Of a stretch of DNA of 64,000 nt, positions 31,117 to 36,539 are shown one piece after another. A program made the translations under genes and the position numbers. This DNA comes from Pseudomonadota bacterium (lineage in GTDB: Bacteria > Pseudomonadota > Alphaproteobacteria > Rhizobiales > Aestuariivirgaceae). The notes beneath the pieces were generated by a model that was given only the letters and a program-made list of their open reading frames with translations, searched no databases and had not been told where the DNA came from. Within the stretch, counting starts at the first letter, position 1. The number at the start of each line of letters is the position of its first letter. The stretch is from assembly GCA_020161855.1 (NCBI GenBank), contig JAIUNJ010000004.1, positions 124,001 to 188,000 on the forward strand, written 5' to 3'.

Positions 31117-31719
31117 ATGACGACAGTGGCCACGCCACCGCCGGATGATCCGGCATGGGCAGGGATCCGCGCCCGCTATGAGAAGGGCGAGGAGAAGGTG
31201 AAGGATATCGCCGCCGGCATCGGCCTCCCGGGCATCGGGCTTTCCAGCCTGGCCAAGAGGCTGGGCTGGCTGATGCGCGGCCTGCCGCGGGTGAAGCGCA
31301 CAGCCGCTCCCAAGGCCAAGGCGAAGCCCGAGACCACGCGCGCCACCATCCTGCGGCTCAAGGAGATGCTGCAGACACGGGTGAAGCAGGTGGAAGCCGA
31401 ACTGAAGGATATCGGCACCGAGCTCGACGCGGTGAAGAATGAACGCGGCATCAAGAACATCGGCATCCTGGTGCGCACCATCGAAAAAGTTCTGGATCTC
31501 GAACGCAATGACACGCTCAAGCGCCGCAAGGCCATCCGTGAGTTCAAGTATTTTGATGACGAGCAGCGTCGTCAGCTTGCGGCAAAAATTGACCGGCTCG
31601 AAGCAGAGAGGGACCGGGACCTCGTTGTCGCGGGACCTGACGCTGGAGGAGGTGGTGGATCTGAACAACCAGTGGCTCTACTGGGTGAGGCCGGGCCAGC
31701 AACTGCCGCCGATGATTGA
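31117..31719 (+). CDS. putative terminase small subunit-like protein (GTA cluster)
   Basis: A 200-residue protein immediately upstream of, and overlapping, the large terminase gene. The N-terminal third has a helix-turn-helix feel (WAGIRARYEKGEEKVKDIAAGIGLPGIGLSSLAKRLGW), followed by a basic Ala/Lys linker and a long charged helix/coiled coil (ATILRLKEMLQTRVKQVEAELKDIGTELDAVKNERG), then a Gly-rich tail. DNA recognition in packaging is inferred from position and architecture. ATG 31117 follows AGGAAGACGACC. The 3' end overlaps the terminase start by about 95 bp. Confidence 0.65.
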   Translation: MTTVATPPPDDPAWAGIRARYEKGEEKVKDIAAGIGLPGIGLSSLAKRLGWLMRGLPRVKRTAAPKAKAKPETTRATILRLKEMLQTRVKQVEAELKDIGTELDAVKNERGIKNIGILVRTIEKVLDLERNDTLKRRKAIREFKYFDDEQRRQLAAKIDRLEAERDRDLVVAGPDAGGGGGSEQPVALLGEAGPATAADD

Positions 31720-32881
31720 CTGCCGCAACTGGCTGGTGCTCGGCGGGCGCGGCGCGGGCAAGACCCGGGCCGGGGCCGAATGGGTGAAATTCCTGGCAAT
31801 TGGCCATCTCGACCCGGTGGTGCGGCGCTGCCAGCGCATCGCCATCGTGGCGCCGACCTTTGACGAGGCCCGCATGGTGATGATCGAGGGCAGTTCCGGG
31901 CTCATGGCGGTTCATCACGACCGGGAGCGGCCGCGCTTCGAGCCGTCGAAGCGCACCATCACCTGGGAGAATGGCACGGTTGCCCAGATCTTTTCGGCGG
32001 AGGAGCCGGATGGCCTGCGCGGCCCGCAATTCGATGCCGCCTGGTGCGACGAGATGGCGAAATGGAAGCAGGGCGAGAAGGCCTGGATGAATGTGCAGAT
32101 GGCCTTGCGGCTGGGGGAGGTTCCCCATGCCGTGATCACCACAACACCGCGCCCGACGAAACTCGTCCGTGAGCTGATCAATGATGCGGCAACCGTGATC
32201 AGCCGGTCGCGGACTGCCGACAACCACGCCAACCTCTCGCCCGCTTTCCTCCGGGATGTGGTGGCGCGCTACGCCGGGAGCAACCTCGGCCGCCAGGAAC
32301 TGGATGGCGAGGTGCTGGCGCAGGATGAGGAGGCGCTGTGGACGCGCGACCTGATCGAACGCTTCAGGGTGCGCAGCCTGCCCGAACTGAAACGCATCGT
32401 CGTGGCAGTCGATCCGCCGGCAACGGCGGGCGAAAGGGCCAATGCCTGCGGCATCATCTGCGCCGGCCTGGGCACGGATGACCGGGCCTATGTGCTCGAT
32501 GACGCCAGCTGCCGCCGCCTGCGCCCGCTGCAATGGGCGAAACGTGTGGCCGATCTCTATCACACGCGCGGCGCCGACAAGGTTGTAGCCGAGGTGAACC
32601 AGGGCGGCGACATGGTGCGGAGTGTGCTGGCGCAGGCCGACGGCACGGTGCCGGTGAAGCCGGTGCATGCGGCGCGTGGCAAGCAGGCGCGGGCCGAACC
32701 GGTGGCGGCACTCTACGAACAGGGCCGCGTCTCGCATCTCGGTGCGTTCCGGGAACTGGAAGACGAGATGTGTTCACGGATCGGCGAGGGCGGCAGCCCG
32801 GACCGGCTCGATGCGCTGGTCTGGGCGCTGAGCGAGTTGCTGCTGCGCAAGAAGATGGAACCCCGGGTGCGAGGGTTGTGA
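31625..32881 (+). CDS. terminase large subunit / DNA-packaging ATPase-nuclease
   Basis: About 418 residues. The packaging ATPase has Walker A GGRGAGKTRAG (Gly40-Thr47 from the assumed start), Walker B FDAAWCDEM, and the coupling motif ITTTPRP. The RNase H-like nuclease half begins VVAVDPPATAGERANACGI, with VVAEVNQGGD and DRLDALVWALSEL carrying further acidic residues. It resembles the GTA gp2-type terminases, which package random host DNA by headful. The start is uncertain: TTG 31625 (LSRDLTLEEVVDLNNQWLYW) with AGAGGGA upstream is my choice, overlapping the preceding gene. Confidence 0.92.
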   Translation: MSRDLTLEEVVDLNNQWLYWVRPGQQLPPMIDCRNWLVLGGRGAGKTRAGAEWVKFLAIGHLDPVVRRCQRIAIVAPTFDEARMVMIEGSSGLMAVHHDRERPRFEPSKRTITWENGTVAQIFSAEEPDGLRGPQFDAAWCDEMAKWKQGEKAWMNVQMALRLGEVPHAVITTTPRPTKLVRELINDAATVISRSRTADNHANLSPAFLRDVVARYAGSNLGRQELDGEVLAQDEEALWTRDLIERFRVRSLPELKRIVVAVDPPATAGERANACGIICAGLGTDDRAYVLDDASCRRLRPLQWAKRVADLYHTRGADKVVAEVNQGGDMVRSVLAQADGTVPVKPVHAARGKQARAEPVAALYEQGRVSHLGAFRELEDEMCSRIGEGGSPDRLDALVWALSELLLRKKMEPRVRGL

Positions 32882-32895
32882 TCCACGAAATGAGC

Positions 32896-32925
32896 CTTCC
32901 CCCGTCGCGCCAGCGATGGGGGAGG
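32896..32925. repeat. REP-like hairpin A between terminase and portal
   Basis: A 13-bp stem with a GCCA loop (left arm CTTCCCCCGTCGC, right arm GCGATGGGGGAGG, two G-T pairs). Part of a C/G-rich repeat block filling 32896-33022. Confidence 0.6.
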
Positions 32926-32987
32926 GTGCCCGAAGGGCGGGAGAGGGACTGGTTTCGAGCCACGCCCTCTCCCCCGCGTTCCGCGGA

Positions 32988-33022
32988 CCCTCTCCCATGT
33001 CCTTCACGGACACGGGAGAGGG
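32988..33022. repeat. REP-like hairpin B between terminase and portal
   Basis: A 15-bp stem with one mismatch and a five-base loop (left arm begins CCCTCTCCCATGTCC). Lies 25 bp before the first, truncated copy of the portal start. Confidence 0.6.
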
Positions 33023-33046: not shown

Positions 33047-33076
33047 ATGCTGAACTATCTGAAACCCTTCTTCACC
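33047..33076 (+). pseudogene. 5' remnant of a portal gene (direct-repeat copy 1)
   Basis: These 30 bp are identical to the first 30 bp of the intact portal gene (33579-33608) and encode MLNYLKPFFT. Similarity continues for a few codons (QAARVK versus KASKAG) and then enters the DUF559 cassette, where the frame stops at about 33190. It has its own ribosome site (AGGAGAATGAA). Confidence 0.8.
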
Positions 33077-33095
33077 CAGGCGGCGCGCGTGAAAA

Positions 33096-33147
33096 TCTAT
33101 CCTCCCCCCTTTGCGGGGGAGGTGCCGCGAAGCGGCGGAGGGGGCTG
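33096..33147. repeat. left terminal inverted repeat of the DUF559 cassette
   Basis: Starts TCTATCCTCCCCC, continues GGGGGAGGTGCCGC and GCGGCGGAGGGGGC. Matches the reverse complement of 33491-33547 apart from two short loop segments. Each end folds as two hairpins (CCTCCCCC/GGGGGAGG and GCCGC/GCGGC), the layout of a REP doublet. Confidence 0.8.
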
Positions 33148-33489
33148 TTGCAAGGCTTCCTCTATGCGCAAGACGACACCATCAAGTGCGTGATTGATGT
33201 CGATGTTCCAGAAACGGAGCACGCGGAAACCCTGCGCGGTGAAGTGCCGGTCGCGTATTTGATCTGAAGCGAAGCGCGGACCTTCAGCGTGCTGTGATCC
33301 ATCGACTTCGATGATGATGCGATGACCGAACTCGGCGAAGTCAAGAATATAGCCATCAAGCGGCACCTGCCTCCGGAAGTGAAAGCCGCGTCGGTTGAAC
33401 GACCGAAGGCAGACCCAGAGCCTGACCTCTTCCCGAGTCATCGACTTCCGAAGTGCGCGCGCTCTTCCGACAAGTCTTGAACGAACCAC
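33097..33489 (-). CDS. DUF559 (Vsr/PD-(D/E)XK-like) endonuclease inside a REP-flanked cassette
   Basis: A 130-residue protein of the DUF559 family: VGRARALRKSMTREEVRLWVCLRSF, then RGFHFRRQVPLDGYILDFAEFGHRIIIEVDGSQHAE, with the nuclease-fold residues Asp (ILDF) and Glu-x-Asp (IEVDGSQH), and ending FRVLRFWNIDINHALDGVVLRIEEAL. The start is probably GTG 33489; an upstream frame to 33567 only reads through the inverted repeat. Its 3' end runs through the other inverted repeat, so gene and element are coextensive. It is on the opposite strand to the phage genes it separates. Biochemical role unknown; see findings. Confidence 0.82.
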   Translation of the reverse strand: MVRSRLVGRARALRKSMTREEVRLWVCLRSFNRRGFHFRRQVPLDGYILDFAEFGHRIIIEVDGSQHAEGPRFASDQIRDRHFTAQGFRVLRFWNIDINHALDGVVLRIEEALQQPPPPLRGTSPAKGGG

Positions 33490-33490
33490 C

Positions 33491-33547
33491 GGCCCCCTCC
33501 GCCGCTGCTGTGCAGCGGCACCTCCCCCGTGACAGGGGGAGGATAGA
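33491..33547. repeat. right terminal inverted repeat of the DUF559 cassette
   Basis: Reverse complement reads TCTATCCTCCCCC, GGGGGAGGTGCCGC, GCGGCGGAGGGGGCC around two loops, the same blocks as at 33096-33147. The first codons of the DUF559 gene lie immediately inside it. Confidence 0.8.
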
Positions 33548-33578
33548 CACAATTGAACAACTGGCAAAGGAACGACCG

Positions 33579-34700
33579 ATGCTGAACTATCTGAAACCCT
33601 TCTTCACCAAGGCGTCGAAGGCGGGGGCGCTGATCGCGCTGCATGGCGCAGGGCGGCCGCAATGGACGCCGCGCAACCTCGCGGCACTGGCGCGCGAAGG
33701 CTTTGCCGGAAATGTCATCGGCTACCGCTGCGTGCGCATGATCGCCGAGGCCGGCGCCTCCGTGCCGCTGCTGACCTATGTGGACGGCAAGGAGGTGGAG
33801 CAGCACAGGCTCGCCAGCCTGCTGGCACGGCCCAACCCGTCGCAAAGCGGCCGCGACCTGATCGAGACGCTGCTGGCCCAGCTCATGGTGGCGGGCAATG
33901 CCTATGCCGAACTCGTGTCGCTCGATGGTGAGCCGCGCGAGATCTTTGCCTTGCGGCCCGACCGCATGGCCGTTGTGCCGTCACGCTCCGGCTTCCCGGA
34001 GGCCTATGACTATGCCGTCAACGGATCGGCCCTGCGGCTGCCGCGCGAGGCGGTGCTGCATCTGAAGCTGTTTCATCCGCTTGACGATTTCTATGGCCTC
34101 GCACCACTGGAGGCGGCGCGGCGGGCGATCGACACGCACAATGCCGCCAGTGCCTGGAACAAGGCCATGCTCGACAATGCGGCGCGGCCTTCCGGCGCGC
34201 TGGTCTTCGCCGCGGGCGACGGCCAGCTCACCGGCGAACAGTTCGACCGGCTCAAGGCGGAACTGGAAGCGACCTATCAGGGCGCGGCCAATGCCGGGCG
34301 GCCCATGATCCTCGAAGGCGGGCTCGACTGGAAGGAAATGGGCTTCAGCCCCAAGGACATGGAATTCAACGAAGCCAAGAACATGGCGGCCCGCGAGGTG
34401 GCGCTGGCCTTCGGCGTGCCGCCCATGCTGCTCGGCATTCCGGGCGACAACACCTACGCGAATTATGCCGAGGCCAACCGCGTGTTCTGGCGGCAGACGG
34501 TGGTGCCGCTGCTGGCCCGCACCTGCGAGGCGCTGGCGCTGTGGCTTGAGCCCCATGCCGACGGCAGGCTTTCGGTCCGGCCCGACCTCGATCAGGTCGA
34601 GGCCCTGGCGCCCGACCGCGACGCGCTGTGGAAGCGGGTGAACGAGGCGGTCTTTCTCACTGTCCCCGAGAAGCGGGCGGCGGTGGGCTACGGGGCATAG
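33579..34700 (+). CDS. phage/GTA portal protein (HK97 family)
   Basis: A 373-residue portal: VIGYRCVRMIAEAGASVPLLTY, RPNPSQSGRDLIETLLAQLMVAGNAYAELV, VLHLKLFHPLDDFYGLAPLEAARRAIDTHNAASAWN and the C-terminal AREVALAFGVPPMLLGIPGDNTYANYAEANRVFW block typical of HK97-type portals. Twelve copies would form the DNA channel at one capsid vertex. The first 30 bp are a direct repeat of 33047-33076. The ribosome site is AAAGGAACGACCG. The gene is intact despite the cassette placed just in front of it. Confidence 0.95.
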   Translation: MLNYLKPFFTKASKAGALIALHGAGRPQWTPRNLAALAREGFAGNVIGYRCVRMIAEAGASVPLLTYVDGKEVEQHRLASLLARPNPSQSGRDLIETLLAQLMVAGNAYAELVSLDGEPREIFALRPDRMAVVPSRSGFPEAYDYAVNGSALRLPREAVLHLKLFHPLDDFYGLAPLEAARRAIDTHNAASAWNKAMLDNAARPSGALVFAAGDGQLTGEQFDRLKAELEATYQGAANAGRPMILEGGLDWKEMGFSPKDMEFNEAKNMAAREVALAFGVPPMLLGIPGDNTYANYAEANRVFWRQTVVPLLARTCEALALWLEPHADGRLSVRPDLDQVEALAPDRDALWKRVNEAVFLTVPEKRAAVGYGA

Positions 34701-36513: not shown

Positions 36514-36539
36514 TTCCTCCCCCGCTTGCGGGGGAGGAA
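36514..36539. repeat. REP-like palindrome between capsid and connector genes
   Basis: Perfect 12-bp arms (TTCCTCCCCCGC / GCGGGGGAGGAA) around TT. The core CCTCCCCC/GGGGGAGG is the same as in the ends of the DUF559 cassette, so this is a solo copy of the element type. Confidence 0.75.

Follow-up and report, generated by a model that had tools for sequence, protein, structure and literature searches.

How a gene for a DUF559-domain nuclease came to be enclosed by long inverted repeats and lodged between a terminase and a portal gene is the question raised by the locus described here, which lies in the genome of an alphaproteobacterium (G000; 3.36 Mb, 92% complete). The window, as we call the whole stretch of 64,000 nucleotides (nt) that was analysed, carries the DUF559 (Vsr-like nuclease) gene at 33097..33489 on the minus strand; read from a GTG, the presumed start, it would encode ~130 aa, and its open frame reaches to 33567. 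A profile search placed the protein in PF04480 (E = 1.1e-30), with the domain spanning 33151-33471, and a Pfam search matched no further domain in it. The answer that we favour, at a probability of roughly two in three, is that a widespread element of two parts, a DUF559 gene and a pair of inverted repeats of TM/BoxC type, has one of its copies here, and that its spread is driven by the nuclease. The association of DUF559 genes with such repeats is solid, and the role of DUF559 in mobility is a well-supported hypothesis.

The left terminal repeat (33096..33145, plus strand) consists of a first hairpin (CCTCCCCC/GGGGGAGG), a T, a second hairpin (GCCGC/GCGGC), a G and a gene-facing purine tail, GAGGGGG, and the right terminal repeat (33492..33547, minus strand) is its inverted copy with different loops. 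The two arms are complementary over 33 nt at 88% and over another 20 nt at 90%, their differences being mainly confined to two loops when read from the window sequence, and an exact (zero-mismatch) pattern of this repeat type matches only these two arms in the genome. The left repeat contains the last ~15 codons and the stop of the nuclease gene, and the purine tail of the right repeat appears to sit at the expected ribosome site of the same gene. Outside the arms, the 5' end of the portal gene is present twice: a shortened remnant, copy 1 (33047..33085, plus strand), precedes the cassette, and copy 2 forms the first 39 nt of the intact portal gene (33579..34700, plus strand). The direct repeat (33047-33085 versus 33579-33617) is identical at 37 of 39 nt, including all of the first 30, and the intact copy opens a complete portal gene (PF04860, E = 1e-89). 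Thus, a first-pass annotation made from the letters alone, which had described a DUF559 gene between inverted repeats differing just in two loops, 30-bp identical portal copies and an intact portal gene, is borne out, with the loops accounting for most of the differences and the duplication extending further than it had claimed. Compared by eye, the leader of copy 1 (AGGGAATGAAAATG) is like the portal leader of the closest relative, G030 (AGGAGAATGAAATG), and a different 31-nt leader precedes copy 2. Copy 1 is therefore probably the ancestral start, and copy 2 with its new leader would have arrived with the cassette or been made with it.

This architecture recurs at most of the DUF559 genes sampled. 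PF04480 was found at 80 places in 32 of 37 genomes of the window's genus, with up to six paralogues per genome. When arms were sought within 200 nt of 79 of these places (the remaining one has too short a flank), an arm score of at least 15 was reached at 63 genes and of at least 20 at 58, versus 1 of 693 gene-sized control positions at either threshold (11 control stretches and the window). Similarly, in wider sets, 52 of 79 loci in named genomes and 23 of 29 in a sample of the class scored at least 15, versus 4 of 873 control positions; the named-genome loci, with ends defined by the domain, are the best 80 of at least 567 confirmed relatives less L180, which has runs of N, and the 52 include a run of C that may be trivial (L169) as well as L135, which the genus set already contains as L016. 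The armed loci of the wider sets include ones from Caulobacter, Sphingopyxis, Mesorhizobium, Xanthomonas, Sulfuritalea, Desulfobacca, a Chloroflexi metagenome-assembled genome (MAG), Gastranaerophilales and Rickettsiales. The question posed by the first-pass annotation, whether DUF559 genes elsewhere have such ends, is thus mostly answered in the affirmative. The window genome itself carries a second DUF559 gene, between sdhA (identified from sequence reading) and sdhB (named by NCBIfam), within inverted repeats of 39 nt that are 92% complementary and of another sequence type; this second cassette (L001, 1362-1896) has an extra repeat near 1455.

Moreover, the type of repeat goes with the type of nuclease. 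Across 61 loci (1769 pairs without shared flanks) arm similarity correlated with protein identity (Mantel r = 0.36; top of 2000 permutations, 0.12), rising from 0.25 at 35-45% protein identity to 0.67 at 65-75% (22 pairs) and 0.92 above 75% (3 pairs), and in 49 same-genome pairs unlike proteins were, with few exceptions, accompanied by unlike repeats. Outside cassettes, matches to model R1, built for the clade IV repeat, had a median of 38.5 in the 10 genus genomes with a clade IV gene (one of them, G014, with a partial domain) versus 17 in the others (p = 0.014) and were not enriched in genus genomes with a clade III gene (p = 0.57), and strong matches (at least 60 bits) to R2, the clade III model, averaged 1.86 in seven clade III carriers (one of them, G013, assigned by arm type rather than by protein) versus 0.17 (p = 0.0006). 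The five genus genomes that lack DUF559 had a median of 1 R1 match versus 25.5 (p = 0.009). These counts may be low, up to 150 or 145 candidates per genome having been scored. At the level of the class (142 alphaproteobacterial genomes), a general model of the TM repeat (R3) matched in 26 of the 37 genomes whose DUF559 gene is strong (E < 1e-20) versus 10 of the 105 others, among which 14 genomes with weak matches only were counted (p = 4e-12). The association persisted when the weak genomes were counted as carriers (29/51 versus 7/91, p = 2e-10), when six genomes whose repeat types are known in the model were dropped (20/31 versus 10/105, p = 2e-9) and when two arms were subtracted per carrier (p = 2e-10).

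What kind of repeat is this? From outside to inside it is laid out as a pyrimidine-purine hairpin, a short linker, often a variable second hairpin (parsed in 76 of 126 genus arms) and a purine tail, and it can be read as a hairpin with a purine third strand. Among matches to the clade IV model (63, of which 59 distinct), compensatory stem changes gave 73 double-changed cells versus a mean of 18 after shuffling and 3-9 when the pairing was slid, in an alignment fitted to the same structure by a model built from some of the same repeats and hence biased toward pairing. At two stem positions of this clade a G-T opposition is common (29/44 and 48/57 cells), a hint of a link to the cutting of T:G mismatches by Vsr. 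The tail resembles the mirror of the purine stem moderately better than alternatives (0.83 mirrored, 0.775 direct and 0.72 shuffled over the 80 of 126 arms that could be used). Better evidence for a mirrored tail than this test over all arms is a triplex motif defined strictly, its loop limited to 1-5 nt, which occurs in at least one arm at 32 of 75 wide loci, in both arms at 18, versus 11 of 2226 control windows. We place the cassette repeats with the TM/BoxC class of intrastrand triplex repeats, a placement that the strict motif bears out for part of the family. The BoxC/PIT/TM motif is described as stems with a TTA or CCG loop and a purine third strand, present in 23 copies in Escherichia coli MG1655, five inverted A+B pairs among them, and is reported to form a triplex in solution (PMC4666352). 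Its copies were described without mobility functions nearby, and a text search of the main text of that paper found no mention of DUF559, ycjD, endonuclease or Vsr. More broadly, listings and the opening lines of abstracts, which left subscription journals and bioRxiv mostly uncovered, contained no work linking DUF559 to TM/BoxC-type repeats.

The first-pass annotation had instead likened the arms to the REP elements that are partnered by RAYT transposases, and this identity we reject. No Y1_Tnp (Y1/RAYT-type transposase) gene was found in the 92% complete window genome, the Y1 family is not linked to TM repeats across the 142 class genomes (11/32 versus 25/110, p = 0.25), and a GTAG or CGTC tag is absent from either end of 15 clade IV and 13 clade III repeats, whose tails are GGATGAGGG and GGGTGAGGG.

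The DUF559 gene of E. coli K-12, ycjD, has a TM-form repeat with a TTA loop between itself and fabI; an inverted pair was not found around it (score 9), the only clear copy being the one on the fabI side, and ycjD looks like a degenerate cassette. In the same region (L257, 1541-2261), part of the 3' end of ycjD is repeated just 3' of the gene, adjoining the BoxC-like repeat. At least 80% of the sequence of the ycjD region is present in 3333 of 5426 E. coli genomes. No clean empty site was obtained, two strains without ycjD having a regulator and efflux genes in its place; the latter have been named eef (PMC12817139).

In an 18-row alignment of DUF559 proteins E47, D76, E87, D102 and R105 are invariant and D89 and H93 nearly so, and some of these we presume to be catalytic; differences fall at codon positions 1, 2 and 3 in the proportion 229/144/649 (15 overlapping pairs), indicating purifying selection; and relatives of known structure found by sequence profile include the mobile intron protein 3r3p (E = 4.8e-5), which we take to be I-Bth0305I. 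Together these suggest an active nuclease. The link between YcjD and Vsr at the profile level has been published (PMC1189080), and in Caulobacter a DUF559-domain protein, VsrA, has been connected with DNA damage and with a cytosine methyltransferase, the SOS response of methylation-deficient cells depending on this one protein (PMC12907096), a dependence compatible with a cutting enzyme. Some of these data also speak for the rival rated highest, according to which DUF559 is a Vsr-like mismatch endonuclease of host DNA repair and the flanking repeats are incidental or regulatory: VsrA fits such a role, as do the purifying selection and the occurrence of DUF559 copies at the same site in several genomes. 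Host repair fails to predict, however, that inverted arms would enclose 63 of 79 genes, that arm type would track nuclease clade, that a genome would hold up to six paralogues or that repeats would be present where the gene is, and we consider it unlikely. A role in anti-phage defence was rejected as well, PADLOC giving no convincing match (none for the window protein and E = 0.0025 at best for the second gene of the window genome).

Orthologous junctions differ from genome to genome, the cassette being present at some and missing from others. Classed by eye, 2 of 20 terminase-portal junctions hold a DUF559 gene and 18 do not, so the alternative raised by the first-pass annotation, that all related clusters carry the gene in the same place, does not apply. 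At the other occupied junction (G006) the gene is enclosed by different repeats and its protein is 52% identical to that of the window; in the closest relative, G030, whose portal is 80% identical, the junction measures 28 nt and has no repeats, and three junctions (L088, L091, L092) hold gene-less repeat doublets. The same gap contains several near-identical ~35-nt tandem units in one genome (L077 of G031; 363 nt) and, at L085 and L086, inverted repeats of the type CGTCA...CCCGGC, which we take to be CGTC-type REPs. Between sdhA and sdhB, 27 of at least 30 loci were examined and 26 show both genes; these junctions, again classed by eye, are empty in 13 cases (4-15 nt), and hold a DUF559 gene in 5 (one of them, L243, without repeats), repeats only in 4 (L233, with repeats of the cassette type, and L251, L252 and L253) and other sequence in 4. 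This other sequence measures 383-1058 nt (L235, L237, L247, L249), and the gap may be a general insertion hot spot; at some junctions, moreover, insertion and loss would leave the same picture. The idea that the first-pass annotation had put forward, a compact repeat-associated mobile or homing element using a Vsr-like nuclease, came through both comparisons that could have undone it, those of arms elsewhere and of orthologous junctions, and is right in its outline but supported in part, cleavage and movement being its conjectural side.

Cassettes with neighbours checked by NCBIfam lie between genes of the same complex or pathway (gatA-gatB, gcvH-gcvP, glyQ-glyS), and others precede sdhB or pheT or separate cysS from a citramalate-synthase-like gene; several of these neighbours were searched as pieces of 250-300 aa, cysS, gcvP and citramalate synthase fell below the whole-protein cut-off, and pheS was recognised by sequence reading only. 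At nine loci, chosen from the 63 for a co-directional next gene (which some of the others lack), the right arm ends 9-38 nt upstream of the next start codon. On one contig (G024, contig 41), two cassettes ~8 kb apart (L056 and L059) have proteins 89% identical, near-identical arms and flanks without detected homology, and look like a recent local copy.

The duplicated portal start has two clear counterparts. The test covered 133 loci, 60 of the genus and 73 of the wider sets, and the 5' end of the downstream gene is clearly duplicated at three of them: portal at the window locus (L002), pheT at L020 in G012, where leader and 5' end occur twice as a 63-nt repeat (score 60.5) in the order decayed upstream copy behind a palindrome, cassette, intact pheT, and gatB at L118 in a Robiginitomaculum MAG, where leader and start are duplicated at 31 of 31 nt in the same layout. 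Direct repeats scoring at least 30 flank six of the 133 loci and none of 906 control positions, which were all taken from the window's genus; the other three (L153, L190, L191) are longer and, by eye, include the palindromes themselves, and weaker ones at L168, L211 and L062 are not at gene starts. At L190 and L191, both on MAG contigs, the long palindrome-containing repeats abut the cassette, which at L190 lies inside a 1460-codon open frame. A simple target-site duplication as a rule can be rejected, the three cases being few, unequal in length (31, 39 and 63 nt) and in part set apart from the arms; the test is blind to duplications below ~12 nt. Of the earlier suggestion that the element carries a portal 5' end and so restores its target, the duplication is real, and a retained 5' copy proves rare.

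These duplications bear on a further rival, in which DUF559 is a free-standing homing endonuclease that cuts cassette-less operon junctions and is copied with its flanks, the repeats being passengers or end protection. Duplicated 5' ends at three independent loci, the recurrent use of the same junctions and the kinship to a mobile intron protein all agree with it, yet homing alone leaves unexplained both the gene-less doublets, including that of L233, where the sdhA-sdhB junction holds repeats of the cassettes' own type, and the genome-wide link between repeat and gene, and we rate it slightly lower than host repair. That the repeats spread by other machinery or by structure-induced instability, with DUF559 hitchhiking in doublets and the 5' duplications being repeat-driven tandem duplications, is improbable, if weakly tested: TM loci are reported as unstable (PMC4666352), repeats far exceed cassettes (at least 1068 R1 matches over the 37 genus genomes) and the left copy at L020 sits behind an apparent palindrome scar, but the Y1/RAYT family is neither found in the window genome nor linked to TM repeats.

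On the best reading, TM/BoxC-type repeats have here an autonomous form, which brings its own nuclease gene and enters operon junctions, perhaps by way of homing-like repair. The DUF559 protein would recognise its own folded repeat, probably single-stranded, and nick or cut either this repeat or the cassette-less junction, whereupon repair from a cassette-bearing molecule would insert the cassette. One-sided (homing-like) repair would leave a 5' remnant of the kind present at three loci, and internal loss of the gene would yield gene-less doublets, such that a nuclease acting on its own repeat type would spread cassettes and gene-less doublets alike into junctions of co-transcribed genes.

Several observations weigh against this reading. 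The arm score stays below 15 at 16 of the 79 genus genes and at 27 of the 79 named-genome loci, and arms drawn from two different loci score at least 15 against each other in 14.9% and at least 20 in 7.7% of cases, because loci have repeat types in common. Within the genus, the match between clade and repeat is unclean at the genome level, R2 being mildly enriched in clade IV carriers too (p = 0.024) and one genome, G035, having 30 R1 copies and no DUF559; within the class, 11 of 37 carriers lack a TM match and 10 of 105 others, 3 of them with a weak DUF559 gene, have one, and the genome-level comparisons are uncontrolled for genome size and base composition. Forty-nine locus pairs share one site in different genomes, which fits vertical descent or domestication, and the co-specificity could stem from inheritance of the whole unit. 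A DUF559 protein of Caulobacter is reported to be a repair-like enzyme (PMC12907096). The window genome has a single match to the TM model, and the left arm, which matches R1 at E = 2.9e-4, matches R3 at E = 0.0057 and over the first hairpin only, a second hairpin replacing the short loop in the window arms; this loose fit arises because the second loop is often enlarged to a second hairpin in the genus. Cutting by DUF559 and transposition or excision of the element, lastly, are read from sequence comparisons rather than observed as events.

If the element nevertheless moves as proposed, a Pfam domain of unknown function would gain one, the spread of a repeat class across phyla would be explained and a second kind of enzyme would join the REP-like elements. 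The pairing names a candidate protein family for the spread of TM/BoxC repeats, testable in E. coli K-12 and Caulobacter, and suggests that in the DUF559 family lies the missing engine of these bacterial repeats, a widespread class that has been an orphan until now. Tentatively, and with slightly less than even confidence, we extend this to bacteria at large: DUF559 proteins would be the mobility enzymes of TM/BoxC repeats, a second, independently evolved counterpart of the REP-RAYT system, whose Vsr-type nuclease acts on the repeat in folded form (as a triplex, or as a hairpin with G-T opposition) and whose spread proceeds via repair from the cassette-bearing allele, E. coli ycjD being a relic of the source of BoxC.

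The surroundings of the window cassette contain a further trace of such repeats. The upstream neighbour is the gene for the terminase large subunit (31439..32881, plus strand; PF03237 and PF17289; given as the open frame, so that the true start may differ), and between it and portal copy 1 lies a gene-less inverted doublet (32896-33021), missed by the first-pass annotation and of a repeat type other than that of the cassette arms. Its first half is a clade-IV-type repeat (32896..32947, plus strand; cmsearch with R1, E = 4.4e-13) and its second half is inverted (32965..33021, minus strand; E = 5.5e-9). The cluster, with genes for terminase, portal, prohead protease and capsid, resembles a prophage or gene-transfer agent, and a perfect palindrome, CCTCCCCCGCTTGCGGGGGAGG, occupies 36516-36537 in the gap 3' of the capsid gene.

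Among known systems, the REP-RAYT elements (REPtrons, REPINs; TnpA_REP) share with the cassettes short palindromic extragenic repeats, inverted doublets, many gene-less copies, a gene that has its own repeat type in inverted orientation on both sides and the co-specificity of gene and repeat. They differ in the enzyme, which is an HUH tyrosine transposase in RAYT and a PD-(D/E)XK Vsr-like nuclease in the cassette. EDxHD homing endonucleases such as I-Bth0305I share a catalytic domain related by profile, recurrent junctions and duplicated 5' ends of the target, whereas the cassette is flanked by repeats, shows no intron or intein and has no further Pfam domain. Unlike DDE insertion sequences and miniature inverted-repeat transposable elements, the cassette has no short fixed target-site duplication at both ends, within the reach of a test that registers at least ~12 nt. 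Vsr and Caulobacter VsrA belong to the same fold group, and VsrA has the DUF559 domain (PMC1189080, PMC12907096). Part of the arms share with BoxC/PIT/TM repeats a stem of pyrimidines and purines, the short loop and the purine third strand, and the arms likewise occur in inverted pairs (PMC4666352); they differ in that the cassette pair encloses a nuclease gene and that in the genus the second loop has often grown into a second hairpin. The repeats and the protein family were both known before; because neither REP-RAYT systems nor homing endonucleases take in the cassette as a member, we regard the pairing of DUF559 with these repeats as categorically new.

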